A stretch of DNA of 64,000 nt, taken from positions 2,914,001 through 2,978,000 of the forward strand of contig NZ_CP043808.1 of the NCBI RefSeq assembly GCF_008386315.1. The letters are read 5' to 3'. The notes below the pieces were generated by a model that was not told where the DNA came from, did not search any database, and worked only from the letters and a program-made list of their open reading frames with translations. Origin of the DNA: Serinicoccus marinus DSM 15273 (GTDB lineage Bacteria; Actinomycetota; Actinomycetes; Actinomycetales; Dermatophilaceae). A program made the translations under genes and the position numbers. Below, one piece after another: positions 12,167-64,000 of this stretch (its first letter is position 1; each line of letters begins with the position of its first letter).

Positions 12167-12201
12167 ACCTCCATGGTAGGTCGCCTCGTTAGGCTGGCCA
12201 T

Positions 12202-45109: not shown

Positions 45110-45126
45110 GGCAATGTTTAAACTGC

Positions 45127-45148
45127 AGCGAAGCATACGTGCTTCGCT
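45127..45148 (+). terminator. Hairpin after the WecA-like gene
   Basis: AGCGAAGCA, loop TACG, TGCTTCGCT: a perfect 9-bp stem 17 bp after the stop. There is no T run, so it may attenuate or process the transcript rather than end it. Confidence 0.5.
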
Positions 45149-45227
45149 CTGGAAAACACCACAATTGCGAGGCCGCGCCACCACTCAGAAGCGCAATGCT
45201 AGAAATCGCTACTAAAGGAGACGCCTC

Positions 45228-47303: not shown

Positions 47304-47519
47304 GCAGTCTGCTGCGGTCCTGTGGTCCACCTATCCCTAGCATTATCTAGGCGAACTCTTCAATATTCGGTGTACTGTATTCATGATACCTGCGCATGCG
47401 ACGGGAGTATTGTTTGACCGGCGAGTGATCGATTCCACTAGGGCTTGGGCTCCAAGCCGCCCGCGGCAGCTGCGTACCCGTGACATATATGTAAACGTGA
47501 CTTTTTGTCTTTGGGGGTG
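47304..47519. other. Gap between the island and ISL3 debris
   Basis: About 215 bases of mixed composition without a convincing gene. The minus frame that ends here is the read-through tail of the ISL3 fragment. Confidence 0.4.
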
Positions 47520-47700
47520 GGGGCCATAGGTTCAGGCCGCCGCTGATGAGAAGCATGCGCAGGCGGTAGTCGTTGAAGGTGGTCACGCCTAGGGCGATCC
47601 GTCGGTGGAGTTCGATCAGACCGTTGATGGCCTCTGTGCCGCCGTTGTTGGCGCCGGTGTCGAAGTAAGCCGGCTCTTCGTATTTGAGCGGGGCGCCCGG
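47520..47700 (-). pseudogene. ISL3-family transposase, C-terminal fragment
   Basis: The minus strand encodes AYFDTGANNGGTEAINGLIELHRRIA and FNDYRLRMLLISGGL, the conserved C-terminal block of ISL3 transposases including its last catalytic Glu region. The rest of the catalytic domain is missing and the tail runs into unrelated sequence. It lies on the opposite strand from the N-terminal fragment next to it, so the element has been rearranged. Confidence 0.8.
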
Positions 47701-47707
47701 TAGGTGA

Positions 47708-47961
47708 TCGGGCTCGTGGCCCCGACATGCTGTTGGTCTCTCACCACCGACAGCGACGAGGCCACGAGCATGGACGACGGTACGGCAGTACTTCTGGGTC
47801 TGGAGGACGCGTTCACCGTCCTGCTGATCGGGCGGATCAACCCGGGGCGGGTGAAGGCGCTCATCGAGGTCAGGGCGAACGAGGGTGCCTGCCCGGGGTG
47901 CGGGGTCCTGACGAGGAGGGTCAAGGACCGTCCGATCATCGCGGTGAAGGACCTGACCTGA
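47708..47961 (+). pseudogene. ISL3-family transposase, N-terminal zinc-finger fragment with upstream hairpin
   Basis: GCTCGTGGCC (47708-47717) and GGCCACGAGC (47759-47768) form a perfect 10-bp inverted repeat just before the start. The plus strand from 47770 encodes MDDGTAVLLGLEDAFTVLLIG, then ALIEVRANEGACPGCGVLTRRVKDRPIIAVKDL, the ISL3 zinc-finger region, ending in a stop at 47961 created by the junction. Confidence 0.75.
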
Positions 47962-48099
47962 CTTCGGCCACATCGTGAGGCTTGGGGGGCGGGTGGGTCA
48001 CTGACCTGCTGGTTCGGCCTCCGGTGGAGCGGAAGTTGTGCACTAACCGGGTCACTAGAGTGGCTGGGTGGCTCACGTCCGGACGGTGAAGACTGCCTC

Positions 48100-48344
48100 G
48101 GGCCTGAGTTGTGACGTTTTGGTTACACTGTGTCGCCCCGGGTCTGGTGGAGGCTCTGAATCCTGGGAAGGATGATGAGCACCATGGCAGCACCGAGGAA
48201 GTACAGCGTCGAGTTGCAGCAGCGGGCGACGAGGATGGCGATAGAGGCCCGGAAGGACCCTGAGAGTGCGCGTGGGGCGATCAAGCGTGTCGCCGACCAG
48301 CTGGGGGTGCACCCCGAGGCGTTGCGTAACTGGGTCAGGCAGGC
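48100..48344 (+). mobile_element. Left part of an IS3-family element (call it ISy) with orfA N-terminus
   Basis: GGCCTGAGTTGTGACG near 48098 resembles the terminal repeat also found near 60504 (GGCCTGAGTTTGATC). OrfA starts at ATG 48172 or 48184 and encodes MAAPRKYSVELQQRATRMA and GAIKRVADQLGVHPEALRNWVRQA, a helix-turn-helix. It is cut at 48344 by another IS3 element. The missing rest of orfA is found inverted at 61027-60868. Confidence 0.8.
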
Positions 48345-48376
48345 TGTGGTTCCCCCCAGATCGTGGAGGCTTGCGG

Positions 48377-49318
48377 CTACGCGGCGTCCGGGATGGGCGT
48401 CGCGGTGGTCTGCTCGTAGTTGACCGGTGACATCATGCCAGCGGCGCTGTGCCGGCGTTGGTGGTTGTAGAAGTCGTAAGCCCAGTCGATGACCACGGCG
48501 CGGGCCTGAGTACGGGTGTCGAACTCGTGCCGGCACAGCACCTCCCACTCCAGGGAGGAGAACAGCGCCTCGGCAGCTGCATTGTCGAAGCACGAGCCGA
48601 CCCGACCCATCGACTGGCGGATCCCTAGCTGGGCGCACAACCGGCTGAACGAGCCCGCCGTGTAGGTCGAGCCCCTGTCGCTGTGGAAGATGACCCGCTC
48701 GGACTCGTCCTCGCGCCAGATCGCCTCCTTGCCGCCGCGGGCGGTCACGGCCATCCGGATCGCCGCGCACGCCAGCTCGGCGTCCGGGTGGTTGCTGGTC
48801 GCCGCGCCGAGCAGGCGGCGGGAGTACAGGTCGATGACGGTGGCCAGGTACAACTTGCCCTCAGCCGTGGGGATCTCGGTGATGTCACCGACCCACTTGC
48901 GGTTCGGGGCCGGCGCGGTGAAGTCCCGGCGCACCAGGTCGGGGAACTTCGGCGCGCTCTTGTCCTGCCTGGTCAGACCGCTGCGCCGCTTGATGACACG
49001 GGCCACCAAGCCCTGACGGCGCATCGAGTCAGCGACCGTCTTCTCACTGATCTGCCATCCCGCCTCGCGCAGGTCCTCGTGCAGGCGAGGTGAGCCGTGC
49101 AGCCCCTTGGCCTTCTTGAACGCGACCCGCACCGCGCGGTCGACGCTGTCGCGGCGCCGGTCGGTGTCGGTGAACAACCCGCTCGCAGCGCCCGGTCCCT
49201 CGGCCCGCTTGAGCCACTTGTAGAACCACGCCAGCGAGACCCCGAGCAAAACGCAGACCAGCGTGTGTGGCACGGCATAGTTGGTCCTCTGGTCGGCGAT
49301 GAAGCGTGCCACGCTCAC
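48377..49318 (-). CDS. ISx copy 1 transposase OrfB (DDE integrase)
   Basis: 313 residues. HTH_21-like N-terminal region (CVLLGVSLAWFYKWLKRAEG), then the rve core with the first Asp in KWVGDITEIPT, the second in IFHSDRGSTYT and the Glu in NAAAEALFSSLEWE; the C-terminus is SAAGMMSPVNYEQ. The catalytic triad is complete, so this copy can act in trans. GTG 49318 overlaps the orfA stop in the sister copy. Confidence 0.92.
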   Translation of the reverse strand: MSVARFIADQRTNYAVPHTLVCVLLGVSLAWFYKWLKRAEGPGAASGLFTDTDRRRDSVDRAVRVAFKKAKGLHGSPRLHEDLREAGWQISEKTVADSMRRQGLVARVIKRRSGLTRQDKSAPKFPDLVRRDFTAPAPNRKWVGDITEIPTAEGKLYLATVIDLYSRRLLGAATSNHPDAELACAAIRMAVTARGGKEAIWREDESERVIFHSDRGSTYTAGSFSRLCAQLGIRQSMGRVGSCFDNAAAEALFSSLEWEVLCRHEFDTRTQARAVVIDWAYDFYNHQRRHSAAGMMSPVNYEQTTATPIPDAA

Positions 49319-49331
49319 TTCGTCGCCTCCT

Positions 49332-49604
49332 TCACCCACCGGCCACGGATCGCTTGAGGACATCACGCTCCATCCGCAGCTCGGCGACCTCGGCGCGAAG
49401 CCGCTTCAGCTCCTCGACGTCGTCCTTGGACAGCTCGCCGTGACCCTCGCGCGCAGCGCGAGCACGTTGGACCCAGTTGCCCAGCGTGCCCTCGTTCACG
49501 CCAAGATCGCGAGCGACCTGCGCGATCGGTTTGTTCGTCTCCTCGACGATCCGGACCGCTCCCTCACGGAACTCCCGGTCGTACTTCTTGCGCTTCTCTG
49601 GCAT
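49332..49604 (-). CDS. ISx copy 1 transposase OrfA, 3' end altered
   Basis: About 90 residues: [20 protein letters not shown] with the helix-turn-helix [22 protein letters not shown] and a leucine zipper ([18 protein letters not shown]). Compared with copy 2, one G is missing in the run near 49336-49343, so it ends early as RSVAGG instead of [12 protein letters not shown] and no longer overlaps orfB. Confidence 0.85.
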   Translation of the reverse strand: MPEKRKKYDREFREGAVRIVEETNKPIAQVARDLGVNEGTLGNWVQRARAAREGHGELSKDDVEELKRLRAEVAELRMERDVLKRSVAGG

Positions 49605-49649
49605 CTCGATCCTCATTGTGGATGCCTCTACGCTCCGGGGGGAACCTCA

Positions 49650-50097
49650 GACAGGCGCGAACGCCCGGGTGGTGCGCACGACCAAGGCCCGCCCCGTGGA
49701 CCTGCTCGCGGCGGACACCGAGGCGATGCTGCCGTTGCCGCCGGCGTTGCTGCACCTGGGGTGGCGCAACCACGTGCGCCTGGGCCGGGACTACTACGTG
49801 CGCGTCGACACCAATGACTACTCCGTGCACCCGCGCGCGATCGGCGCCCGGGTCGACGTGGCCGCCGACCTCGACGTCGTCCGCGTCCGGCATGGTGGCC
49901 AGCTGGTGGCCGAGCACCCGCGCCGCTGGGCCCGGAGCATGACCGTCACCGACCCCGCCCACGTCACCGCCGCCGCGGCGTTGCGGCACGCCTACCAGCA
50001 CCCCAGGACTCGTCCCGAGGCCGAGGAGTTGGTCCGGGACCTGGCCGACTACGACAAGGCGTTCGGGATCGACGCCGGCGAGCTGGAGTCGCGATGA
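49650..50097 (+). pseudogene. IS21-family IstA transposase, C-terminal fragment
   Basis: The frame encodes TGANARVVRTTKARPVDLLAA, then GWRNHVRLGRDYYVRVDTNDYSVHPRAIG and RHAYQHPRTRPEAEELVRDL, the C-terminal domain of IstA. The catalytic domain is missing: the fragment begins directly at the end of ISx. It overlaps the IstB start by ATGA, as in intact IS21 elements. Confidence 0.85.
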
Positions 50098-50462
50098 GCC
50101 GCAAGCCGAACTCCGCCGGGACCGAGTCGCTCAAGCAGATCACCCACCTGGCCGCCGCGCTGAAAGCGCCCCGGATCACCGAGGCCGCCGCCCGCCTGGC
50201 CGACCACGCCCGGGACACCGGGTGGACCCACGAGGACTACCTGGCCGCAGTCCTGGAACGCGAGGTCGCCGCCCGCAACGCCTCCGGTGCCCGGCTACGG
50301 ATCCGCGCGGCCGGGTTCGGCGCGGTCAAGACCCTGGACGACTTCGACTTCGACCACCAACCCGGCGCCCGCACCCCCGTCCAGGCGTTGGCGTCCGGGG
50401 CCTACCTGGCCGAGCACCGCAACGTCGTCCTCCTCGGCCCACCGGGCACCGGCAAGACCACT
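50094..50462 (+). pseudogene. IS21-family IstB ATPase, N-terminal fragment
   Basis: From ATG 50094 the product reads through ITEAAARLADHARDTGWTHEDYL to the Walker A motif VVLLGPPGTGKTT, then switches to unrelated sequence. The missing middle (Walker B) is deleted and the C-terminal part lies at about 52036-52320. Confidence 0.85.
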
Positions 50463-50735
50463 GTGAGACTCAACGTCAAGCGCTCAAGCCATGAGCGTCG
50501 CGGGCGGTCCGGGTGTTAGCCGCGGGCCGTCTGCCAGAGTCGGTGCCGGTGATCATGACTGACCCGAAAGACTCATTGGCCGACCCCTTCGTGGGTCGCG
50601 CCTTCGCCTTGGATTTGTCGTCGTGGTCGCCGGCACCGGCCTGGCCCACCGACCGCTGGCCTGATCAGAAGCCTGGCCGACAGATGTCGTGCCTCATCAC
50701 AGTCCTGCCGCGCGGGGGGTCTTGCCCCATGGTGG
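50463..50735. other. Unassigned remnant between IstB and an IS3 element
   Basis: About 270 bases that match neither IS21 nor the adjacent IS3 element. A plus frame from 50513 is open but has no recognisable motif, and the 3' end of the IS3 orfB reads through here on the minus strand. Probably the edge of another, lost element. Confidence 0.4.
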
Positions 50736-51649
50736 TGGACACGGGGGTGGTGGTTACGCGGGGATGGCCAGGTAGCGGTGAGGGTGGTCTCGTAGGTGAA
50801 AGGGGCCTGGTAGTTGGAGGCGGAGTGGCGCCGGCGGGTGTTGTACCGGTTGGCCCACCAGAAGATGCGACGCCGGCAGGTCTCGGCGTTGGGGAAGGCG
50901 TGCCCACCGGCGAGGAGCTCGCGTTTGCAGGTGGCGTTGAAAGACTCGGCCAGGGCGTTGTCCGCGCTCGATCCGACAGCCCCGCGGGACAGCCTCAGAC
51001 CGTGCCGACCGGCGGAGGCGGCGAAGTCCTTTGAGACGTACTGGGCGCCGTGGTCGCTGTGAAAAATGGCCCCGGCCAGGGATCCGCGGGCAGCGGCGGC
51101 CATGTCGAGGGCGTCGGTGAGAAGGCTGGTGCGCATGTGATTGGCGATCGCCCACCCGACCAGCGCTCTTGAACAGCAGTCGATGACGGTGGCCAGGTAG
51201 AGGAACCCGCCGGTGGCGATCGGCAGGTAGGTGATGTCGCCGACGTACTTGGTGTTCGGCGCATCGGCGGTGAAGTCCCTGTTCAACAAGTCGGGGACGT
51301 CCCGGTCCGCGGGGTCCGGGATCGTGGTCCGCACCCGCCGGCGCAGCCGCAGCCCAGGCAGGTGCTGCTTACGCATCACCCGTGCCACGCGCTTGTGGTT
51401 CACCCGCTCCCGTGGATCGGCGCCGTCGTTGAGCTCGGCGGTCACCCGTGGTGCCCCGTAGGCCGGGTCATCCTTCTGCACGGCCCGGATCCGCTCGGCC
51501 AGGGCCTGGTCGGCGGCGGCCCGCTGCTCCCTGGCCAGCGCCGCTTCGGCCCAGGCGTAGAACGAGGACCTGTTGACCTCCAGGACCTGGCACAGCCGCT
51601 TCACCTCGTAGGTGTCCCGGTGGTCGACGACGAACTGAAAGCGGCTCAC
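50573..51649 (-). CDS. IS3-type transposase OrfB
   Basis: 358 residues. HTH_21 region (CQVLEVNRSSFYAWAEA), rve core with Asp in KYVGDITYLPI, Asp in IFHSDHGAQYVS and Glu in NALAESFNATCKRE. All three catalytic residues are intact. The natural end should be near the left terminal repeat at 50736; because no stop occurs inside the element, the last 50 or so residues are translated from flanking DNA. Confidence 0.88.
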   Translation of the reverse strand: MSRFQFVVDHRDTYEVKRLCQVLEVNRSSFYAWAEAALAREQRAAADQALAERIRAVQKDDPAYGAPRVTAELNDGADPRERVNHKRVARVMRKQHLPGLRLRRRVRTTIPDPADRDVPDLLNRDFTADAPNTKYVGDITYLPIATGGFLYLATVIDCCSRALVGWAIANHMRTSLLTDALDMAAAARGSLAGAIFHSDHGAQYVSKDFAASAGRHGLRLSRGAVGSSADNALAESFNATCKRELLAGGHAFPNAETCRRRIFWWANRYNTRRRHSASNYQAPFTYETTLTATWPSPRNHHPRVHHHGARPPARQDCDEARHLSARLLIRPAVGGPGRCRRPRRQIQGEGATHEGVGQ

Positions 51650-52028
51650 CAGTTCGTCTCCCCGGCGAAATACTTGGCCGCCTTGCGCAGGATGTCCCGC
51701 TCGGTAGCCAGCATCATTTTATCCTCCTCCAGGCGTCGCACCTGGGCCTCCAGGCGGGCGATCCTCGCCTGCGGGGACTCACCCTCGGCGGCCTGACCGT
51801 CCCGGTCGGGGTCCTGGGTCCTGGGGCCGGTGTACCCCTGCTCACGACGCCAGGCCGCCAACGTGCCCCGGGAGATCCCCAGATCACCAGCGACCGCTCT
51901 CAACGTGGCACCAGGGGTGTGCTCATACAGCTCGACCGCCTCGCGCCGGAACTCCTCGGTGTAGCTCTTCCTCGGCATGGTGTAGATCTTCTCGCTTCCT
52001 CCAGCCAGTGCTGGGTTCGGCGTGTCCA
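50736..52028 (-). mobile_element. IS3-family insertion sequence of a third kind, inside istB
   Basis: About 1293 bp bounded by TGGACACG on both sides as inverted ends. It carries orfA and orfB on the minus strand with an ATGA overlap. No matching target duplication is seen, and part of istB is missing next to it, so its insertion or later rearrangement removed host sequence. Confidence 0.75.
51646..51978 (-). CDS. IS3-type transposase OrfA
   Basis: 110 residues: MPRKSYTEEFRREAVELYEH, helix-turn-helix RAVAGDLGISRGTLAAWRREQ and a leucine zipper (RIARLEAQVRRLEEDKMMLATERDILRKAAKYFAGE). Its stop overlaps the orfB start (ATGA). Confidence 0.88.
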   Translation of the reverse strand: MPRKSYTEEFRREAVELYEHTPGATLRAVAGDLGISRGTLAAWRREQGYTGPRTQDPDRDGQAAEGESPQARIARLEAQVRRLEEDKMMLATERDILRKAAKYFAGETNW

Positions 52029-52035
52029 CTGCCGG

Positions 52036-52320
52036 GGGTCAGGGCCCGTCGGCTACCTGCCCTTCGAGCAGGACGCGGCCAACCTCTTCTTCCAGCTCGT
52101 CTCATCCCGCTACGAGCACGCCTCGCTGAACCTGGCGTCGAACCTGCCGTTCAGCTCCTGGGCAGGCGTCTTCGGTGACCAGGTCGTCGCGGCCGCGATG
52201 ATCGACCGCATCGTCCACCACGCCGACGTCATCGCCCTCAAAGGCGCCTCCTACCGGCTACGCGACCGCGGCGTCGAGACCCTGCCCAGCATCAAGGCCG
52301 AACAAGAATCCCTAGACTGA
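52036..52320 (+). pseudogene. IS21-family IstB, C-terminal fragment
   Basis: VGYLPFEQDAANLFFQLVSSRYEHASLNLASNLPFSSWAGVFGD and AAAMIDRIVHHADVIALKGASYRLRD are the C-terminal AAA-type blocks of IstB. About 55-65 codons between this and the N-terminal fragment are missing, including the Asp of Walker B. Confidence 0.85.
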
Positions 52321-52372
52321 GACCGTCCACTCTTCGACCGCCGAAACCGTCCAGTTTTCGAGCGCCGTCGAC

Positions 52373-52504
52373 ATTCTTCGCGGTGCGCGGGGAGACCATG
52401 AACAGCTTGGCTACCGCGGCATAGGTCCAACCGTCCTCGACGACAAGCCGCGCCAGTCTCAGACGGGCACGAGCAGTCAGGGCAGCGTTAGCGTGGGACA
52501 GGAG
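52373..52504 (-). pseudogene. IS481-family transposase, N-terminal fragment
   Basis: LSHANAALTARARLRLARLV then VEDGWTYAAVAKLFMVSPRTAK is the N-terminal helix-turn-helix of IS481 transposases. The catalytic part is absent. Confidence 0.75.
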
Positions 52505-53134
52505 GGCCTCCGGTCGGTGAAGCGTTGAACTAGACAGCTCCACTTCACAACCGGAGGCCTTCACCTGTCAGCCCGACTCACCGCCGAACCGCAGGACAAC
52601 CTCCCTGGACATCACACCTAGGCCGAGGCGGTGGGCCGGTCGGTACCGCGTCGAGGGCCCTTGTGGCCGCCTCAACCGGTGCGGTGTCCTCGCAGCGGCA
52701 GACGTCGCCGCAGGCAACGCACGGGTGCTCCGGTGGCCGAGGTAGCATCGCACCAGCGTGCATCTTCTCTACACGGTCTAGCGGGGCACGCAGTGCATCT
52801 GCCCTAGAAGGACTGCGAACAGTGTGGTCTTCGCCCGATCGCGCCTGCAAGACTCTGAAGGAGGGCACGCATTTTGGTACTTCAGGTGTATCGTAAGTCA
52901 AGACCCTATGAGTCAACGACGCCCGCAGCGAACGTTGACGGATATTTCGCCATCCCTGTCGACGCCCAAGCGGAAATCTGCTCTAGCCTCCAAACGAAAA
53001 ACGCGTGGCCACGGCGTGGCGAGTACGGCATCCAGCGGCTCAAAAGGGACTTTGAAAGGGGAAACCAGTGCAGCAGTCAAGAAAGCCCGAGTGGCCCCCG
53101 GCGCGGGGCGCCACTGTCAGTGGTAGAGGTATGC
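52505..53134. other. 630-base stretch without a supported gene, upstream of the sulfotransferase
   Basis: It starts with the former 5' region of the IS481 fragment and then holds high-GC sequence of unknown origin. From about 52850 it becomes AT-richer and belongs to the glycan island, probably including the promoter for the sulfotransferase operon. An open frame in phase with the sulfotransferase continues upstream to 52874 but does not look coding. Confidence 0.45.
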
Positions 53135-54004
53135 ATGCGGAAGGCCGCCCAGATGTTGTTTGTCATCGGTTCGGGGCGATCTGGAACAACGTTGGCGAAC
53201 TCCCTTCTAGGTGCGCTGCCTGGAATGGCCTGTTTTCCGCGGCTGGCTGCTTTCGATCCACGATTTACGCCAGTCGCTAGCTATCTGGCTCGGTATACGA
53301 GCCGCCCGGCGTGGCTGCTGCGTGATTCCAGTGAAATAGTGAACGTACTGCGCGAAGCTGGTATAACGTATGATCTCGTCTCATCTTCGCTGTGCCCTGT
53401 AGGGGCCGAATCTCTCGAAGCGATCCGTCCAGAGTTGCTGCAGCATAGAGTGCATCAGCTGTTGAGATGGCGCGGCGTCTCGACCGCTGTCTTGAAAAAC
53501 ACCCTTAATGTGGCCAGGGTCGGGCTGCTTTCTGCCGCCTTTCCCGAAGCACGGTTCATCCACATCGTCCGAGATCCAGCCGATGTTGTCCGTTCACTTG
53601 AGCGAGTCGAATTTTGGATGACTATGCCCCTATGGTGGGACGGGAGAACAGTCTCGCAGTATATGCATGATGAAGGAGTATCTTCGGCCCGGTTAGCTGC
53701 GCGGCACTGGGCGCGCCAAGTACACACGGTTCTCGAATCGACTCACGGCATTGAATCGCACAGGATCGCCACGTTCACTTACCGCGAGATGACATCTGCG
53801 CCAGCCGAAGCCCTTTACCCTGCGCTAGCCAAGGTGGGATTTGACATCGATGCACGCATGATCGAGATGGCCGCTGAGCGCGTAGGCGTAACAGTGCCGC
53901 GGCGTGCTCAGAAAGCAGAGCCTGATCTAATTCACATTGTGAACGACGAATGCGGGGACGTTTTGGATTCCATCAGCGCCCTGTTCCCCCAGCTTACACT
54001 GTAG
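53135..54004 (+). CDS. Sulfotransferase family protein
   Basis: 289 residues. The 5'-phosphosulfate-binding loop is MLFVIGSGRSGTTLANSLLG at residues 7-26 and the 3'-phosphate-binding element is FIHIVRDPADVVRSLERVEFW near residue 145. It should transfer sulfate from PAPS to a hydroxyl or amine, here most likely on the surface glycan made by neighbouring genes. ATG 53135 follows a GAGG site. It is the first of five tightly packed genes, with AT-rich codon use unlike the backbone. Confidence 0.85.
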   Translation: MRKAAQMLFVIGSGRSGTTLANSLLGALPGMACFPRLAAFDPRFTPVASYLARYTSRPAWLLRDSSEIVNVLREAGITYDLVSSSLCPVGAESLEAIRPELLQHRVHQLLRWRGVSTAVLKNTLNVARVGLLSAAFPEARFIHIVRDPADVVRSLERVEFWMTMPLWWDGRTVSQYMHDEGVSSARLAARHWARQVHTVLESTHGIESHRIATFTYREMTSAPAEALYPALAKVGFDIDARMIEMAAERVGVTVPRRAQKAEPDLIHIVNDECGDVLDSISALFPQLTL

Positions 54005-54010
54005 CCAGCA

Positions 54011-55213
54011 ATGCGGAATGTCCTTAGGGCCCTTGCGCATCTGGCAGGTGGTAACGGCGTCGGCCAGATGGCGCTAGCGGTGTCGCTTCCCATTATTGCA
54101 ATGCAATATCCAGCGACAGCTCTGGGAGAATTTGCTGCAGTGACCTCCGCTGGCGCTGTGCTAGCAATCATCCTCACAGCCCGGTCGGAACAACTGCTAC
54201 CAAGGCTTGCTATCGATGCGTCTCGAGCGCTCGCTCTAACACTTACACTAATAGTTACTATTGGCGGGCTCGTCCTTGGGTTAACTGCGGCGATCGTTCC
54301 CTATGTGTCCAACGTAGTATCCGGAACGCAGTTGGGCGCGGTCCTTATTGCTACGGGACTAGCGAACGTGGCCTCTATGCGGCTCGTCGCCTCCGGTGCA
54401 TCTGCGCAACTTGGCCTTGCCCGAGCGACTAACGGGGTGGTTACGGCGGGAGGTCAGATTGGTATGGGGTTCTTATCACCCAGCACGGAAGCGCTCGTGT
54501 ATGCGTACGTGGCCGGAAGCCTGACGGTGGCCGGAATCGGCGCCACGGTGAATGCACCTACCGAGGCGGCCGACGTGGGCCTTCAGCATGCTCCCGTTGA
54601 AGCGCGGCAAATCCTTCCGCTATTGATCAACGGCTTGACATCCAACCTCGCAATCGCCCTTCCTATTTGGGCGATCACTGCCGGGGTGGGTACCGAGGCT
54701 GCCGGCGCGTTCTTCGTCGCGCGCAAAGCGCTATCCGCCTTGGCCCAGTTAAGCGGGACCGCATTGAGCGACATCACATATCGGCGAATTGCATCTGCCC
54801 GAGGACTCCCCGTTCGGCTCCATTCCCTGTTGTCGAAGCTCCGCCTAGGTCTCTTGGCTGGGGCCGCAGCCATGGTCGTGTGCGGAGTCGCCCTCGGCTT
54901 CGCTGCGCCGCACATCCTTTCTGGATACACTGGATTACAGGCGATGCTGTGGCTCTTCACTCCGGCCGCCGCAGTGCAAGTCATGCTCACCGGGATGACT
55001 GGTGCTTTGCTGGCTTTGCGTGCCGAATTCTTGCTAATGCGGCAAGCAATCGCAAGGCTTGTAGTAACCTGTGCAGCCACCTTTTGGTGGTTGGACATGA
55101 CCAACGGTGGCCTTGTTCTTTACGCGGCGGCCCTGTTTGGATCCTTGGCCGCCGTGTCGATGATCAATGTGACTATGGGCTGGCGTAGACTTACAAACTG
55201 GAGACATTTATGA
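54011..55213 (+). CDS. Polysaccharide flippase-like membrane protein (Wzx-type, MOP superfamily)
   Basis: 400 residues with about 12 hydrophobic segments and few charged residues inside them, as in Wzx/lipopolysaccharide transport proteins. ALGEFAAVTSAGAVLAIIL and the central EAAGAFFVARKALSALAQLSGTALSDITYRRIA (compare the 'G.Y..A..L..L' block of MOP flippases) support the family. It would move the lipid-linked repeat unit across the membrane before polymerisation. It starts 6 bp after the sulfotransferase stop and overlaps the next gene by ATGA. Confidence 0.8.
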   Translation: MRNVLRALAHLAGGNGVGQMALAVSLPIIAMQYPATALGEFAAVTSAGAVLAIILTARSEQLLPRLAIDASRALALTLTLIVTIGGLVLGLTAAIVPYVSNVVSGTQLGAVLIATGLANVASMRLVASGASAQLGLARATNGVVTAGGQIGMGFLSPSTEALVYAYVAGSLTVAGIGATVNAPTEAADVGLQHAPVEARQILPLLINGLTSNLAIALPIWAITAGVGTEAAGAFFVARKALSALAQLSGTALSDITYRRIASARGLPVRLHSLLSKLRLGLLAGAAAMVVCGVALGFAAPHILSGYTGLQAMLWLFTPAAAVQVMLTGMTGALLALRAEFLLMRQAIARLVVTCAATFWWLDMTNGGLVLYAAALFGSLAAVSMINVTMGWRRLTNWRHL

Positions 55214-55911
55214 AGCTATATTACATTGCTGGATATGGTCGTAGTGGCAGCACCGCCCTTGCGGCACACCTCGCGCAGGAACACGACGCCGTGATGGTCG
55301 GTGAAGCCGTCGCGTTCGGGGGGGCAGGTGCCAGTGAGGCGTGCTCGTGTGGGCGGGCTCTGTTCGAGTGTCCATTCTGGCGCAGCATAGTTGCACGGAG
55401 AGACGGCGTTCGTATGAAGGGCGTCAGCCTGCGTCAGTATGATCGACGTTGGCTTCTCTTTGTGCCTCTCCGAGTCTTAGAGAGGCTTATGGCATGCGGG
55501 GGCTCAGCAACAGGCTCGATGCAGCTGTACCGAGAGATTGGCGTCGCTGCCCAGCGTTTAGGGGCAAGTGCCGTGGTTGACGCGAGCAAGACGACTCGCG
55601 ATTCGGCCAACCGGGCACGAATGTATCATCTAGCGGGATACGACGTACAGCTTTATCTCCCGCAACGTCGTGTCTATGAGGTAATAAAGTCTGTGCGCGC
55701 GGCTAGGAAAAGGCGGGCTGTAGACAGTTGGTTTACGAGTGGAAGGGTAATTTGGGGATTATTTTCGTCGCGCATGGCTGCACATATCCTTGCCAAAAAA
55801 GTAGGTAAGCCCGTAGGCTATATCGACATGAATGGGATCGTACTTGACTTCGCAGACGGCTCCGGGTCCATACATTCGTTGCATGGCAATCGGATGATAG
55901 CGAAAGGGTGA
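55210..55911 (+). CDS. Second sulfotransferase-like protein
   Basis: 233 residues. KLYYIAGYGRSGSTALAAHLAQ is a sulfotransferase P-loop at the very N-terminus. GASEACSCGRALFECPFWRSI is a Cys-rich lid found in bacterial sulfotransferases (CSCG...CPFW). ASAVVDASKTTRDSANRARMYHLAGYDVQLYLPQRRVYEVIKSVR stands where the 3'-phosphate motif normally reads HLVRDPR, and here is degenerate. It may modify a different position of the same glycan or have altered donor use. The ATG overlaps the flippase stop. Confidence 0.8.
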   Translation: MKLYYIAGYGRSGSTALAAHLAQEHDAVMVGEAVAFGGAGASEACSCGRALFECPFWRSIVARRDGVRMKGVSLRQYDRRWLLFVPLRVLERLMACGGSATGSMQLYREIGVAAQRLGASAVVDASKTTRDSANRARMYHLAGYDVQLYLPQRRVYEVIKSVRAARKRRAVDSWFTSGRVIWGLFSSRMAAHILAKKVGKPVGYIDMNGIVLDFADGSGSIHSLHGNRMIAKG

Positions 55912-56969
55912 ATAGGGTGTTACGTGTTCTTCATGTGGCTACCGAACGCTTGCGCCCCGGCTCCGCCGCCGAAGTCCATTTTAAGGCGATCGCAGAGGGT
56001 GTTTCGGAGCAAGGTACTGCTTGGACAAGGCGATCGACCAGCGCCACGCGGTGGCCCGCCCTTAGGCTCGTTGCGGCCCAATTGGTCCACCTGAGGCGAG
56101 CCATATGGTCGGACGTGTGTTATGTGCGTTGGCATCCTCTCGACGTATGGTTACTCGCCTGTCGTTGGATCTTGCGTGTGCCCTATGTGTTGGAAGTTAA
56201 CGGCACTCAAGAGGACCTGTATATCAGTCATTCAAGCCTGCGTCGTTTTAGCCGGCTGATGGACTCAATCGTGGCACTCCAGATTCGTGAGGCCGCGGCG
56301 GTAGTTGCTGTCTCGCCGGGGCTACGGGACTGGGCGCGAGGGATAAAAGGGAGACGAAAAGAACCAGTCGGGTGGGCGCCAAATGGGGCCGTAGTTACGG
56401 TTGCGCCGACGGAAATGGTTCATCCCCCTTATGTTGTTTATGTGGGGGAACTTGCGCCCTGGCAGGGGCTTGAACTGCTACTGGCTGCTAAAGAAAGTTC
56501 ATGCTGGCCGGAGGGCGTGGCGCTGCATGTTGCTGGCTCGGGACAGATGGAGCCTCTGCTACGTGAAGCGGCGTCCCAGGGGCAAGTCGTGTGGCATGGG
56601 AGACTGCCGCGTGAGGATGCGCTAGGTCTGCTATCGCGGGCTGCGGTGAGTGTAAGTCCACAATCAAAACAGTTTGATCGCAATTTGCATATGGGGCGCC
56701 CGTTGAAGATAGCCGAATCGCTGCTGCTGGGTGTTCCAGTTGTGCTGACGGACTTCGGTGCGGATAGCCGCCTAGTTGCTTCGCTGCCTGGGTGTCGCTT
56801 GTTAACAGAAGAGGACCCGGACTTGTTGGCAGTGAATATTGCTGCAGTCCTAGACGGAGCCACGCCAGGGCAGCGTGCAGCGTTGGCTAGCGAGGCGGGC
56901 GAAGTGGCGTCTTGGCATCCAGCGATCGAGCTGGCTTGGACTTTGATACGACAGGTCACGTCCCATTGA
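55908..56969 (+). CDS. Glycosyltransferase, family 4
   Basis: 353 residues. RVLRVLHVATERLRPGSAAEVHFKAIAEGV at the N-terminus and PYVLEVNGTQEDLY in the acceptor half. The donor half has VVYVGELAPWQGLELLLAA and PLKIAESLLLGVPVVLTDFG, where the EX7E pattern is reduced to one clear Glu. The GTG start overlaps the previous stop (GTGA). It probably adds one sugar to the repeat unit. Confidence 0.85.
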   Translation: MNRVLRVLHVATERLRPGSAAEVHFKAIAEGVSEQGTAWTRRSTSATRWPALRLVAAQLVHLRRAIWSDVCYVRWHPLDVWLLACRWILRVPYVLEVNGTQEDLYISHSSLRRFSRLMDSIVALQIREAAAVVAVSPGLRDWARGIKGRRKEPVGWAPNGAVVTVAPTEMVHPPYVVYVGELAPWQGLELLLAAKESSCWPEGVALHVAGSGQMEPLLREAASQGQVVWHGRLPREDALGLLSRAAVSVSPQSKQFDRNLHMGRPLKIAESLLLGVPVVLTDFGADSRLVASLPGCRLLTEEDPDLLAVNIAAVLDGATPGQRAALASEAGEVASWHPAIELAWTLIRQVTSH

Positions 56970-58147
56970 ACAATGTGGAACTCTCACGCGTCGGGCGAAC
57001 GGCGCCTCAGGGCCAACCTAGGCTGGAGGCGGCTGGGTGGTCTGTGTTTGTACTCACAGTTACCCAATGCCTAATGTGGTCGTCGGTTCGAGTTGCTGGC
57101 CTCGGGGTGGCGTTCCTGCTGGCGCTTTGGGGTGCTCGTGCGATCAGCCGTGGTCGGGTCCCCGTGGCTTTTGCATTGTTCGTCTTGTTGCTTTGTCTCA
57201 GCGTGCTCTGGTCCGCGAATCCAATACGTTCCCTGGCAGAAGCAGGCGGCTCACTTGCTCTTTGCATCGTTGCCTTGTTGATAGTGCAATCCGCCAATTC
57301 AGTTTTGCAGTTCCATCGAGGATCTAGTTTTGGACTCAGTGCTCTCGTGCTCGGGAGCGGGTTAGTTGAGCTCGTGGGATTTAGTGTTAGCGAGACCACA
57401 TTCAGGGCTGCAACGGGCGTGTTTGTGAACCCAAACATATTGACTTTCGTGTGCGTTCTTGCGTTTGCGCTGTGGTTCCTGTGTCCAACCTCGCCCAACT
57501 GGGGCTATCTGCGAACGGGCACGCTCGTCGCTTCAGTCCTCCTTGTTGCAGCGGCGATGTCGCTGGGCGGGGTAGTCATCCTCAGTCTTGTTGTTGCCAA
57601 AGGTTTGGCCGGTGTGAGGCGCCGCGCGGTGTCCTCTGCGGTAGTCTTCACGCTTATAGGACTGGTATCGCTTGTTTTTTGGGAGTCAATCATGCGCGCA
57701 ACCCAAAAAGCAAGGACGTGGGGATCAATGGATGAGAGATTTGATCTGTGGTCTAGTTCCCTTGGGGCAGGCATGGATAGGCCGTTACTCGGCTATGGGC
57801 GGGCTGGGCTTACAGACGTGACGACCGGTCCGGCGGCATTGCGGGACATATGGGAGGCCGTAGGGTCGGTACAGTTCAATCCGCATAACGGGGTTATCGA
57901 GGTGTTTTTGGAACTGGGTGCAACGGGGCTGCTGCTTCTTGGAGTCTTTGTTGTGCAGGCGGGTATCCAACTATTTCGAACTGCTGGGAAGCACCATGGA
58001 TCAGCGGAGCGACTTGCGATGCGGTGGTTAAGAGTGTTGAGCGCCTTGCTTCTCATCTACAACCTTGTAGAGTCGCGCCTGCTCGATCCGCCACTGGCTT
58101 GGTTCTACGTCTGCATGCTGACTCTATTGGCGGCGCGCCGCGAGTGA
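56966..58147 (+). CDS. O-antigen ligase/polymerase-like membrane protein (Wzy/WaaL superfamily)
   Basis: 393 residues from TTG 56966, which overlaps the previous stop (TTGA). About ten hydrophobic segments. The large extracytoplasmic loop holds ERFDLWSSSLGAGMDRPLLGYGRAGLTDV and FNPHNGVIEVFLELGATGLLLL, the H(N)xxxE-type motif of O-antigen ligases. In a Gram-positive it should polymerise or transfer the flipped repeat unit. It is the last gene of the island before IS debris. Confidence 0.87.
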   Translation: MNNVELSRVGRTAPQGQPRLEAAGWSVFVLTVTQCLMWSSVRVAGLGVAFLLALWGARAISRGRVPVAFALFVLLLCLSVLWSANPIRSLAEAGGSLALCIVALLIVQSANSVLQFHRGSSFGLSALVLGSGLVELVGFSVSETTFRAATGVFVNPNILTFVCVLAFALWFLCPTSPNWGYLRTGTLVASVLLVAAAMSLGGVVILSLVVAKGLAGVRRRAVSSAVVFTLIGLVSLVFWESIMRATQKARTWGSMDERFDLWSSSLGAGMDRPLLGYGRAGLTDVTTGPAALRDIWEAVGSVQFNPHNGVIEVFLELGATGLLLLGVFVVQAGIQLFRTAGKHHGSAERLAMRWLRVLSALLLIYNLVESRLLDPPLAWFYVCMLTLLAARRE

Positions 58148-58197
58148 AGCGCCCCAGGTTTGATGCCGCTCCTGTTTGAGTCCAGGAGGATGAGCAC

Positions 58198-58506
58198 ATG
58201 CCGAAGAGGATCGATGCCGAGCTGCGGGCCCGGGCAGTGAGGCTGGTGCGGGAGCACCAGCAGGAGTACCCTCGCCGACGAGGCGATGGTCGCGGTGTCC
58301 AAGCAGTTGGGCGTCTCTTGCGAGTCGGTGCGCCGGTGGGTCGCCCAGGCGGAGGTCGACGCTGGCGACCGGCCCGGGGTGGCGGCGAGGAGCACGAGGA
58401 GATCAAGAAGCTCAAGGTCGAGAACCGGCGGTTGCGCGAGGACGTGGCGATCCTGAAGGCGGCCACGAGTTTCTTCGTGGGGGAACTCGACCCCCGCAAC
58501 CGTTGA
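58198..58506 (+). pseudogene. ISz OrfA, frameshifted internally
   Basis: Starts MPKRIDAELRARAVRLVREHQ and ends EEIKKLKVENRRLREDVAIL...FFVGELDPRNR. The helix-turn-helix between them (MVAVSKQLGVSCESVRRWVAQAEVDAGDRPG) lies in another frame, so two compensating frame changes, near 58271 and 58385, disrupt the protein. Confidence 0.8.
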
Positions 58507-58589
58507 TGATGGGCTTCATCGACACCAGGCGAGCTCAGGGCCACGCGGTCGAGTCGGTCTGCCGGGTGCTGCGCGAGCAGGGCTGTCAG

Positions 58590-60359
58590 ACCTGAGTTGG
58601 GTCACCGGTCCGTGATTATCGGGCCGGCGAGTCTATGACCTGGCACGATGTGGTGGCTTAGTGCGTCGTTGAGGCACTAATCGGGGTCCTAGGATCGTGG
58701 GATGGCGTGGATCCGGCGGGTGCGGACGGCCTCGGGGGCGACCGCGGTACAGATTGCGGAGTCCGTGGACGGGCGGCGGCGGATCGTGCGCCACGTGGGA
58801 TCAGCGCACGACGGGGCCGAGCTCGGGTTGCTGATGGCTCAGGCACGCCAACTGCTCGAGGGCGACGCTCAGGGCGAGCTGGACCTGGGACTGTCGATAC
58901 CGGTGCCCGAGCAGCGATGGTGCCGGCACCGTCCGCGGCGACGCTGTTCGACGACCCGGCCGGGCCGGTGGGCCGGCGCGCGGTGGTGGCCGCACCGCAG
59001 GTGCTGCGCACCTCCTCGGCGGTGCTGTACGACGCCCTGGCCGGGGTGTACACCGACTTGGGGTTCGACGCCCTGGGTGATGAGGTGTTCCGCGACCTGG
59101 TCATCGCCCGGTTGGTCGAGCCGACCAGCCTGCTGGACGCCGACCGGGTGCTGGCTGACCTGGGCCGGGTCTCCGCGAGTCTGTCGACCCGCAGTCGCAC
59201 GCTGAGGCGCTGCCAGGACGGGGCCTACCGGGACCAGATCGCCAAGCTGTGCTTCCAGCACGCCCGGGCCAGCGAAGATGTGTCGCTGTGTCTGTACGAC
59301 GTGACCACGCTGCACTTCGAAGCAGCCGACGAGGACGCGCTGCGCAAGGTCGGGTACTCCAAGGAACGACGAGTCGACCCCCAGATCATCGTCGGCCTGC
59401 TGGTTGACCGGGGTGGGTTCCCACTAGAGATCGGGTGCTGGGAGGGCAACAAGGCCGAGACCCACACGATCGTGCCGATCATCGAGGCCTTCGCCGCCCG
59501 GCACCAGATCAACGACCTGGTCGTGGTCGCGGACGCCGGGATGCTGTCCGCGGCCAATCTGAAGGCCCTGGACGAGGCCGGGCACACCTTCATCGTCGGG
59601 TCCAAGAACGCCAAGGCCCCGATCGACCTGGCCTCGCACTTCCGCTGGCACGGGGACGCGTTCACCGACGGCCAGGTCATCGACACCCTCACCCCCAAGG
59701 CTGGCAAGAACAAGGGGAACGACCCCGCCCTGCGCGCCGAGCCGGTGTGGGACCCGGAGCAGTACCCGACCTCGTGGCGGGCGGTGTGGTCCTACTCGGC
59801 CAGACGGTTCGCACGGGACAACAAGACCCTCACCGCCCAGGAGAACCGCGCCAAGGCAGCGATCGAGGGCAACAAACCCGCCCGCACGCCCCGGTTCGTC
59901 AAGACCCGCACCGACGGTCTGGTCCTGGACGACGCAGCGCTGGCACGGGCCCGACGACTCGCCGGGCTGAAGGGCCTGGTCACCAACATCCCGACCACAG
60001 TGCTGCCCGCGTCCGAGGTGATCAGCTCCTACGCCGACCTGTGGCACGTGGAGCAGTCGTTCCGGATGTCCAAGAGCGACCTGCGGGCCCGGCCCCTGTT
60101 CGCCCGACGTCGCGACTCCATCGAGGCCCACCTGACCATCGTGTTCACCGCCCTGGCCATCGCCCGCACCGTCCAGGCCCGCACCGGGCTCTCGCTACGC
60201 CGAGTCCTGCGCCAGCTGCGCCCATTGCGCTCGGCCACCATCGAAGCCAACGGCGCCATCCGCACCCTGCCACCAGCACTCGGCCCCGACGAGCACGCCC
60301 TCCTGAACGACCTCGGGCAGACCGATCCAAGGCACTAAGCCATTTGACCTAACTCAGGT
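58590..60359 (+). mobile_element. IS1634-like (IS4 superfamily) insertion sequence nested in ISz
   Basis: 1770 bp with near-perfect 15-bp terminal repeats ACCTGAGTTGGGTCA and (reverse) ACCTGAGTTAGGTCA. It is flanked by CAG on both sides (58587-58589 and 60360-60362), a 3-bp target duplication; removing it and one CAG restores ISz orfB in frame. Confidence 0.88.
58702..60338 (+). pseudogene. IS1634-like transposase with one frameshift
   Basis: ATG 58702 encodes MAWIRRVRTASGATAVQIAE and continues to IPVPEQR. At CGATGG (58915-58920) one base is missing, and the other frame continues MVPAPSAATLFDDPAGPVG to the end. The DDE domain is intact: LYDVTTLHFEAADE (first Asp), VVVADAGMLSAANLKAL (second), and SYADLWHVEQSFRMSKSDLRARPLF, the Y-(2)-R-(3)-E-like C1 motif. 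With one base added it is about 545 residues and full length. Confidence 0.85.
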
Positions 60360-60379
60360 CAGATCGCCGCGCGGACCTA

Positions 60380-61030
<651 letters not shown>

Positions 61031-61063
61031 TGAGGTTCCCCCCGGAGCGTAGAGGCATCCACA

Positions 61064-61366
61064 ATGAGGATCGAGATGCCAGAGAAGCGCAAGAAGTACG
61101 ACCGGGAGTTCCGTGAGGGAGCGGTCCGGATCGTCGAGGAGACGAACAAACCGATCGCGCAGGTCGCTCGCGATCTTGGCGTGAACGAGGGCACGCTGGG
61201 CAACTGGGTCCAACGTGCTCGCGCTGCGCGCGAGGGTCACGGCGAGCTGTCCAAGGACGACGTCGAGGAGCTGAAGCGGCTTCGCGCCGAGGTCGCCGAG
61301 CTGCGGATGGAGCGTGATGTCCTCAAGCGATCCGTGGCCGGGTGGGTGAAGGAGGCGACGAAGTGA
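61064..61366 (+). CDS. ISx copy 2 transposase OrfA
   Basis: About 96-100 residues with the same helix-turn-helix and leucine zipper as copy 1 but an intact end ([12 protein letters not shown]). The stop overlaps the orfB GTG (GTGA), showing that OrfB is made by translational coupling rather than by a classical -1 slip. Confidence 0.88.
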
Positions 61367-62097
61367 GCGTGGCACGCTTCATCGCCGACCAGAGGACCAA
61401 CTATGCCGTGCCACACACGCTGGTCTGCGTTTTGCTCGGGGTCTCGCTGGCGTGGTTCTACAAGTGGCTCAAGCGGGCCGAGGGACCGGGCGCTGCGAGC
61501 GGGTTGTTCACCGACACCGACCGGCGCCGCGACAGCGTCGACCGCGCGGTGCGGGTCGCGTTCAAGAAGGCCAAGGGGCTGCACGGCTCACCTCGCCTGC
61601 ACGAGGACCTGCGCGAGGCGGGATGGCAGATCAGTGAGAAGACGGTCGCTGACTCGATGCGCCGTCAGGGCTTGGTGGCCCGTGTCATCAAGCGGCGCAG
61701 CGGTCTGACCAGGCAGGACAAGAGCGCGCCGAAGTTCCCCGACCTGGTGCGCCGGGACTTCACCGCGCCGGCCCCGAACCGCAAGTGGGTCGGTGACATC
61801 ACCGAGATCCCCACGGCTGAGGGCAAGTTGTACCTGGCCACCGTCATCGACCTGTACTCCCGCCGCCTGCTCGGCGCGGCGACCAGCAACCACCCGGACG
61901 CCGAGCTGGCGTGCGCGGCGATCCGGATGGCCGTGACCGCCCGCGGCGGCAAGGAGGCGATCTGGCGCGAGGACGAGTCCGAGCGGGTCATCTTCCACAG
62001 CGACAGGGGCTCGACCTACACGGCGGGCTCGTTCAGCCGGTTGTGCGCCCAGCTAGGGATCCGCCAGTCGATGGGTCGGGTCGGCTCGTGCTTCGAC

Positions 62098-62341
62098 TGC
62101 GAGGATCGTGTCTGCGCCACCGCCTGGGGTCTGACCCTTGTTACGACCGGCCCCGCTGGGTGCCCTCGCGTTGACGTGTCGGCCCTGGGTGGTGGCGTGC
62201 ACCTGGCTGCTGGCCGGGTGGGCAGTGACCTGATAGGAGCCTGACTCGACCAGGGTCTCATCGCAGTCCTGTCCGCCCACTCCGGCCAGCTGAGCCATGG
62301 ACACCGCGCCCGGAGAATGCGAGAGAGGAACCCATAGCCCG
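62098..62341 (+). ncRNA. Probable bridge (seeker) RNA region of the IS110 element
   Basis: IS110-group elements encode a guide RNA in the non-coding end upstream of the transposase. This element has about 240 bp of such DNA here, with no coding frame of its own (the ISx frame merely reads in). It contains CTCGAC and CAGCTG, which resemble pieces of the target (TTCGAC and, in copy 1, CAGCTG), but the loops were not folded. Position and family are the basis. Confidence 0.45.
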
Positions 62342-63505
62342 ATGCCCAGCATGCAACTTCGCCGCGACGATGTCATTGTCGGCGTCGACACACACAAGGA
62401 CAACCACGTCGCCGTCGCGGTCGACGGCCTGGGCGGCCGACTGGGCGACCTCGTCGTGCCCGCCACCCTTGCCGGCTTCGAGGAGCTTGTCGCCTTCTGT
62501 GTTGCCTTCATCGGCCCTGAGGGTCGCCTGGTCGCATTCGGTGTCGAGGGCACCGGGTCCTACGGTGTCGGCCTGGCCCGCTACTTACGCCGCCAGGGCC
62601 ACGAGGTCCACGAAATCGCCCGCCCGGCGCGAGCCGTGGAACGGCGCCTCGCAGGAAAGAACGACACCCTCGACGCCGAGCACGCCGCACGCCAACTCCT
62701 GGCCGGGCACGGCCTGTCCACACCGAAGACCGCTGACGGCGAGGTCGAGACGATCAGGTTGGTCAAGATTGCCTACGACGGCGCCGTTCAGGCGCGCACG
62801 ACCGCGATGATCACGCTCAAGGCGACTCTGGCGACCGGGAGTGAGGCGTTGCGGACCGAGTTGGAGAAGCTGACCGATCACCAGCTCGTCCTCGCCTGCG
62901 CGGCCTTGGAGGGCCCGACCCCGCTACCGCCGGTGCGGCGGGGCGCACCAGCAGTCGTCCTACCCATCGACCCCGACGCGGCGATGCGGCACGTGCTGTC
63001 CTCGATGGCGAGGCGGTGGCTGAGCCTGCACGAGGAGGCCAAAGCCCATGCCGCCTCGCTGAAGGCCCTCACTGCAGCCGCCGCGCCGCGCCTCGTCGAG
63101 GCCGTCGGTGTCGGCTACGACACGGCCGCCCAGATGCTGATCACGGCCGGCGACAACACGGACCGGATCAAGTCCGAGGCCGCGTTCGCCAAGATGTGCG
63201 GCGCGTGCCCGATTCCCGCCGGGTCCGGCAAGACCAACAACAGACACCGCCTCTACAGGGGCGGGAACCGGCAGGCCAACGCCGCTCTCTACCGAGTCAT
63301 CATCGTCCGCATGCGATGGCACCAACCAACCATCGACTACGTGGCCCGTCGCACCGCCGAAGGCCTGTCCAAACGAGAGATCATCCGCTGCCTCAAGCGC
63401 TACCTCGCACGCGAACTCTTCCGCCTCCTCCCAGCACCCGATACCACGCCCCCCCCCGAGACGAGGAACTCGAGATGGTCGCCTGATCGACTTGACGATC
63501 TATAG
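62342..63505 (+). CDS. IS110-family DEDD transposase
   Basis: 387 residues from ATG 62342. The N-terminal RuvC-like DEDD domain has VIVGVDTHKDNHVAVAVD (first Asp), VAFGVEGTGSYGVGLARYL (Glu) and KNDTLDAEHAARQLL (Asp). The C-terminal Tnp_20 domain has LVEAVGVGYDTAAQMLITAGDN, FAKMCGACPIPAGSGKTNNRHRLYRGGNRQANAALYRV with the catalytic Ser in the PAGSGK region. It appears intact. Confidence 0.9.
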   Translation: MPSMQLRRDDVIVGVDTHKDNHVAVAVDGLGGRLGDLVVPATLAGFEELVAFCVAFIGPEGRLVAFGVEGTGSYGVGLARYLRRQGHEVHEIARPARAVERRLAGKNDTLDAEHAARQLLAGHGLSTPKTADGEVETIRLVKIAYDGAVQARTTAMITLKATLATGSEALRTELEKLTDHQLVLACAALEGPTPLPPVRRGAPAVVLPIDPDAAMRHVLSSMARRWLSLHEEAKAHAASLKALTAAAAPRLVEAVGVGYDTAAQMLITAGDNTDRIKSEAAFAKMCGACPIPAGSGKTNNRHRLYRGGNRQANAALYRVIIVRMRWHQPTIDYVARRTAEGLSKREIIRCLKRYLARELFRLLPAPDTTPPPETRNSRWSPDRLDDL

Positions 63506-63753
63506 GAGCATCAATGCAGCCGCCGAGGCGCTGTTCTCCTCCCTGGAGTGGGAGGTGCTGTGCCGGCACGAGTTCGACACCCGTACTCAGGCCCGCGCCG
63601 TGGTCATCGACTGGGCTTACGGCTTCTACAACCACCAACGCCGGCACAGCGCCGCTGGCATGATGTCACCGGTCAACTACGAGCAGACCACCGCGATGCC
63701 CATCCCGGACGCCGCGTAGCCGCAAGCCCTCCACGATCTGGGGGGAACCACAG

Positions 63754-64000
63754 TCATCTTCCTCCGCCCGTACAGCCCCTCGGGCGTGAGCCGGCGCCGG
63801 CCGTGCTGGTCGGTCGTCCAGGCGATGTCCCGCACGGCGTGCATGACCTGGGCGTCGGTGACGGTGCGCGCGGCCACGGCCCGGGTGGCGCACTTCCAGC
63901 TGCGGTAGGTCCGCGCGGCGATCTGGCAGCCCTGCTCGCGCAGCACCCGGCAGATCGACTCGACCGCGTAGCCCTGGGCCCTCATGGTGTCGATGAAGCC
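63754..64000 (-). pseudogene. ISz-type OrfB fragment running off the window
   Basis: The minus strand encodes GFIDTMRAQGYAVESICRV to [59 protein letters not shown] and is then cut at the end of ISx. It is closely related to ISz orfB at 58506-60510 but with several substitutions. Its start and orfA lie beyond 64000. Confidence 0.8.

Follow-up and report, generated by a model that had tools for sequence, protein, structure and literature searches.

Opposite copies of an insertion sequence (IS) bound a one-megabase inversion in Staphylococcus aureus OC8, where the element is IS256, one copy has heterogeneous flanks attributed to a preceding deletion between copies in direct orientation, and a course of deletion followed by inversion was proposed (PMC5065196). 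Intramolecular inversion by IS6-family elements leaves two opposite copies, each with one original and one target flank (PMC7986276), while in Burkholderia thailandensis host recombination between a pair of IS2-like elements alters genome structure through RecA-dependent phase variation of a 208.6-kb duplication, with dynamics and phenotype established by experiment (PMC9946442). Polysaccharide genes themselves are inverted in Eggerthella lenta, whose capsule clusters turn reversibly on 16-bp or 39-bp inverted repeats and are tied to phage resistance (PMC13174815). Here we describe an 11.4-kb block of glycan genes and IS remnants in Serinicoccus marinus DSM 15273 that has most probably been inverted between two opposite copies of an IS3-family element, which we call ISx. 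The block lies in a stretch of 64,000 nucleotides (the window; contig NZ_CP043808.1, positions 2,914,001 to 2,978,000) of a genome that forms a single contig (3,420,275 bases, 99.7% complete).

The locus resembles S. aureus OC8 in that opposite IS copies bound the segment and one of them has heterogeneous flanks, but the element is of the IS3 family rather than IS256, the segment measures 11 kb instead of 1 Mb, and only the OC8 case is backed by an uninverted relative. With the IS6-family inversions it shares the two opposite copies with one original and one target flank each, although both the IS family and the transposition pathway differ. The Burkholderia elements have in common with the account favoured below that the host recombines an IS pair, whereas here a single inversion is read from sequence; the Eggerthella clusters share the inversion of polysaccharide genes, but differ in their short repeats, their reversibility and their link to phage resistance.

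Swapped flanks and an interrupted ISy

The two ISx copies stand in opposite orientation at both ends of the block (Table 1). Copy 1 is flanked by GGC and GAC and copy 2 by GCC and GTC; neither pair matches as it stands, and an earlier note on this DNA had correctly read the flanks as swapped between the copies. Its limits for copy 1 also stand, while copy 2 ends at 63752 rather than 63753, since G63753 already opens the GTC flank. The decisive comparison comes from a second IS3-type element, ISy, whose halves now abut the two ISx copies. When the left flank (48130–48344) was used as a query, the genome itself returned positions 2732041–2732251 (96%) and 3015454–3015665 (94%), the query and three short matches of 74%; the right flank (60512–61030) returned 2731566–2732043 (95%) and 3015663–3015919 (97%), again with itself and three matches of 74%. 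At both native ISy copies the halves are contiguous, overlapping by exactly the 3 bp GGC/GCC (2732041–2732043 and 3015663–3015665), and they meet in the relative orientation opposite to that in the window. When the window flanks are joined with a single GGC, alignment runs colinearly across the junction, both with the first of these copies over 687 bp (95.6%, one gap) and with the same-genus genome G001 over 693 bp (86.9%, no gap), so that the orfA halves at 48344 and 61030 do rejoin as one ISy gene, as had been claimed. A chance origin of this colinearity is very unlikely, and the two halves were most probably once adjacent around one ISx. Because the halves abut in the native copies, we read 49650–61030 as inverted relative to an ISx lying in one continuous ISy, with the breakpoints inside the two ISx copies; in this the earlier note is borne out.

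IS3-family elements, IS2 among them, carry a DDE transposase gene, orfB, with orfA upstream, measure ~1.2–1.5 kb, have TG...CA inverted ends, make a short target repeat and produce OrfAB through a programmed frameshift. In its genes, size and ends ISx conforms to this description: its orfB is of the IS3 type (NF033516, 276.2 bits against a cut-off of 160; Pfam rve match), the upstream orfA carries an HTH_Tnp_1 domain (PF01527, 5.4e-15), and its 1305 bp, TGAGGTTCCCCCC...GGGGGGAACCACA, fall within the size and end pattern of the family. A search of the 3.42-Mb genome (40 of 270 candidates scored) gave seven matches and no third ISx: one match was copy 1, two were the arms of copy 2, and the remaining four were cross-matches of 69–73% (~120 bp) to other IS3 elements. 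Among plasmids, 323 records matched ISx, seven of them with one place covering at least 80% of the element (best of those 76.8% identity); the organisms named for the best 20 matches were all actinobacteria, and matches of some kind occurred in 46 Escherichia records as well.

The habit of the element was surveyed in its best 80 of 250 relatives, 79 of which, together with L008, made up the 80 loci scanned. Complete copies of ~90% similarity in Mobilicoccus caccae have identical 3-bp flanks in six of eight cases and lack them in two, a count that omits L084 (left end not seen) and the diverged L110 and L143. Across the 80 loci, 27 end pairs could be compared, with a match of 3 bp in 12 (including L126 and L128, which have the same flanks), of 4 bp in five, of 5 bp in one and none in nine, and the single ISx of the same-genus genome G014 (90%) has a 3-bp flank match. 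Matching flanks are thus the usual state of ISx and unmatched pairs are not rare, so that it is ISy, and not the flanks, that carries the case for inversion.

The earlier note had also proposed perfect 3-bp duplications for both copies once the block is turned back. This holds for GGC/GGC, as the native ISy sites attest, but GTC/GTC joins two different truncated elements, the IS21-family ISw and the IS3-type ISz. ISw is cut within istA and ISz within orfB; intact relatives of both carry GTC at the cut and, past it, run on into unrelated sequence. The correspondence of GTC with GAC has a weight of roughly 1 in 64, if equal base use is assumed, and is consistent with the inversion. Apart from a 140-bp, 71% cross-match between ISz and the IS3 element at 51.2 kb, the 103 kb searched (window start to genome position 3,017,000) yielded neither of the lost parts of ISw and ISz. 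One or more deletions bounded by ISx therefore probably occurred beside copy 2 in addition to the inversion; such a deletion may have proceeded by recombination between direct copies or by transposition. A direct ISw-GTC-ISz join, sought as an exact 16-base pattern, was present in none of the 186 genomes of the family-level set (one genome per species, the own one included). That ISx landed by chance on an ISw-ISz junction already in place seems to us less likely than a deletion bounded by ISx, though the 16-base search leaves room for such a landing.

Origin of the inversion

In the account that we favour, ISx would first have inserted into a continuous ISy, duplicating GGC, and a second copy in the opposite orientation would have come to lie about 11 kb away with one side joined to ISw. 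A deletion involving this second copy, before or after the flip, would have left it joined to ISz, and RecA-type homologous recombination between the inverted copies would have turned the 11.4 kb, parting the ISy halves and swapping the inner flanks. Taken as a whole, and with a neutral scar as its outcome, this course of events seems to us reasonably likely.

The inverted copies supply about 1067 bp of near-identity with one indel: before the IS110-family element that splits copy 2 they agree at 1066 of 1067 positions (a single 1-bp indel), and beyond it at 237 of 241. The 240 bp beyond IS110 thus hold four of the five differences, against one in the 1067 bp that precede it (binomial P 0.005), which fits homogenisation of the uninterrupted arm by recombination. 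Judged against four Mobilicoccus references, one Cutibacterium and G014, the derived state is found at four of the sites in copy 1 and at one in copy 2. A single base towards the end of orfA (49339–49341) is missing from copy 1 but retained in copy 2 and in six compared relatives; this loss may reflect decay or a sequencing error. The IS110-family element has another genomic copy (2728231–2729645, 98%), about 2 kb from another ISy copy. That homologous recombination caused the inversion, as the earlier note held, is likely given inverted copies so nearly identical, but falls short of proof, since transpositional inversion gives the same flank pattern.

Several points weigh against the favoured account. 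The GTC/GTC pair spans two different elements, with no clean second duplication. Unmatched flanks by themselves are not rare (two of the eight Mobilicoccus copies, nine of the 27 end pairs). The signal of homogenisation comes from five differences, and sequencing error could account for two, which are 1-bp indels within or next to short runs of G or C. No genome with the uninverted order was found when the family-level genomes and the 396 genomes of the order-level set were searched with block proteins. Finally, a transpositional inversion in one step would also account for there being two ISx copies and no more, one at each end of the block.

This last process is less probable, but is the main rival. 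A single ISx in ISy, acting as an IS dimer or by replicative intramolecular transposition, would have attacked a target GTC. The intervening DNA would thereby have been turned round and another ISx of opposite orientation produced, which accounts in one step for the exact copy number. IS3-family elements share the copy-out-paste-in pathway of IS30. The dimer junctions of IS30 give both inversions and deletions (PMC9333248), and the flanks expected, one old and one target flank per copy, are those described for the IS6 family (PMC7986276). Against it, the clustering of the five copy differences beyond IS110 weakly favours later recombination between the copies; the need for an extra ISx-bounded deletion at the ISw/ISz side burdens the transpositional and the favoured models alike.

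An assembly artefact, in which the true order is the opposite one and the assembly switched from one inverted ISx copy to the other, appears unlikely. Mis-joins do arise at inverted near-identical repeats of ~1.1 kb, and one of them here would give exactly the swapped flanks; however, the single 3.42-Mb contig, 99.7% complete, suggests long reads that spanned the 1.3–2.7-kb element, and the IS110 insertion makes the two copies distinguishable. Very unlikely is a history with no inversion at all, in which an ISy::ISx composite was duplicated in opposite orientation and each copy then lost one ISy half through a separate ISx-bounded deletion. ISy does have other copies, and at least one such deletion probably happened here, but this history requires a duplication and two deletions of complementary ISy halves, and makes the reverse complementarity of GAC and GTC an accident of roughly 1 in 64.

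The glycan genes and the question of a switch

The earlier note rightly placed the block genes in the same direction as the glycan genes at 42–47 kb, all on the + strand, and went on to suggest that repeated flipping could alter their expression or coupling. Between the two groups lie ~5.6 kb, most of it IS sequence running in either direction. Both breakpoints fall within ISx and cut IS genes alone, and no glycan gene or promoter crosses a breakpoint. The glycan genes begin about 3 kb inside the block and these ~3 kb upstream are also wholly inside it, so that a flip moves the genes and their upstream region together. A scan of 47200–63800 with the sigma-70 consensus, which covers that promoter type only, gave two promoter-like sites (2.1 expected in shuffles), both on the - strand and neither upstream of the + strand glycan genes. 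As regards a dedicated site-specific recombinase nearby, the subset of 18 window ORFs put through Pfam comprised glycan genes, IS genes and ORFs that matched no family. Nothing in the locus points to a switch: a turn carries the glycan set intact along with the sequence upstream of it, and the flip is thus most likely a neutral scar left by the crowding of ISs.

A living RecA-driven flip-flop, whose direction tunes a sulfated surface glycan, is highly improbable; it would imply at least two turns, since the low-GC glycan genes to either side of the left breakpoint are now co-directional but would not have been when ISx entered ISy. If the low-GC glycan genes on both sides once formed a collinear cluster, it is possible that ISx entered ISy with the block reversed and that the present direction is a return. 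Most improbable of all is the functional phase switch put forward by the earlier note. Recombination could recur across the ~1.07 kb of near-identical inverted sequence, and invertible capsule loci do exist (e.g. Eggerthella lenta, PMC13174815), but the glycan genes lie ~3 kb inside the block with mostly IS sequence on both sides, sigma-70-like sites are at chance level with none upstream, the outside glycan genes are ~5.6 kb away, and no second orientation was seen.

Table 1. Features at the two ends and in the interior of the block (window positions).
Feature	Position	Strand	Remarks
ISy left half	48133–48344	+	5' part of IS3-type orfA, cut by ISx copy 1
GGC target repeat (3 bp)	48342–48344	+	Partner now GCC at 61028–61030
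ISx copy 1	48345–49649	- (sense)	1305 bp, IS3 family; NCBIfam IS3 transposase 4.6e-82
Inverted block	49650–61030		11,381 bp; basis, flanks and ISy
ISw (IS21 family)	49650–50459	+	C-terminal istA and istB start, cut by ISx at GAC 49650–49652; 98% to G007; Pfam IstB_IS21, Mu-transpos_C_2
Another IS3-family element inside ISw	50460–52047	-	Outer limits taken from where ISw stops and resumes
ISw remnant	52048–52373	+	istB end; 99% to G007
Sulfotransferase (PF13469)	52874–54004	+	True start perhaps near 53135
Hydrophobic protein	54011–55213	+	No family match
Probable second sulfotransferase	55210–55911	+	PF13469 in 27 of 34 listed homologues; no direct Pfam match
GT4-type glycosyltransferase	55908–56969	+	
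O-antigen ligase/polymerase-type protein (PF04932)	56912–58147	+	
ISz-like remnant	58140–60502	+	58140–58590 and 60360–60502, split by IS1634-family element (ORF 58707–60338)
ISy right half	60553–61030	-	Cut by ISx copy 2
GCC	61028–61030	+	Reverse complement of GGC at 48342–48344
ISx copy 2	61031–63752	+ (sense)	Arms 61031–62097 and about 63512–63752; split by IS110-family element
IS110-family element inside ISx copy 2	about 62098–63511	+	
ISz (IS3-type)	63753–64000, on to window-equivalent 64371	-	N-terminal part, cut by ISx at GTC 63753–63755; 99.7% over 619 bp to G029

The five glycan genes of the block have a GC content of 56–59% and the gene at 45228–47303, outside it, 56.5%, compared with 73% for window positions 1–40000; across 44111–58147 as a whole, the glycan genes range from 56 to 63%. 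Such low GC suggests that the glycan genes flanking the left breakpoint are of foreign origin. The hydrophobic protein at 54011–55213 had been called a flippase, a name that we do not retain, as it gave no match in Pfam (E up to 5) or NCBIfam and no meaningful match among Protein Data Bank (PDB) sequences. The ISz-like remnant at 58140–60502 runs opposite to ISz at 63753, and the region also holds pieces of IS3, IS21, IS110 and ISL3 type. Just beyond the window lie two nearly identical cysN-cysD pairs for sulfate activation (genome positions 2978894–2981073 and 2987518–2989697, i.e. L048:1894–4073 and 10518–12697). They point the same way at a distance of ~8.6 kb and enclose capsule-type genes, the second pair being assigned by its near-identical translation. 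They fit a sulfated glycan locus and could recombine with each other.

The block genes have few relatives. In the family-level set the 54011–55213 protein and the 52874–54004 sulfotransferase were each present in two of 186 genomes, the own one and one other (at 26% and 30% respectively), and in the order-level set the 55210–55911 and 54011–55213 proteins were each found in one of 396 genomes, the own one. Scanning genome contigs for the PF04932 protein gave 29 stretches that fit a pattern, none of which was confirmed as a relative. When 5.8 billion proteins were searched with the 54011–55213 protein (7,998 candidates sharing the most words were scored, a limited reach that missed the 26% relative), a single entry was found, P0001 (249 amino acids, 100% identity), whose two members come from two contigs, including the own 3.42-Mb contig. 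The block genes are therefore nearly private to this genome, and the ancestral orientation is not readable from relatives.

What the locus offers is an ordinary, real-looking IS-bounded inversion accompanied by a probable IS-bounded deletion, a well-known kind of rearrangement of which this instance is new. Swapped IS target repeats, with native uninterrupted copies of the target as reference, allow an inversion to be read at base level from one genome. The locus also suggests that the orientation of a strain-specific glycan gene set can be decided by IS traffic and not by what the genes do, which counsels caution in inferring coupling from the present direction of genes.

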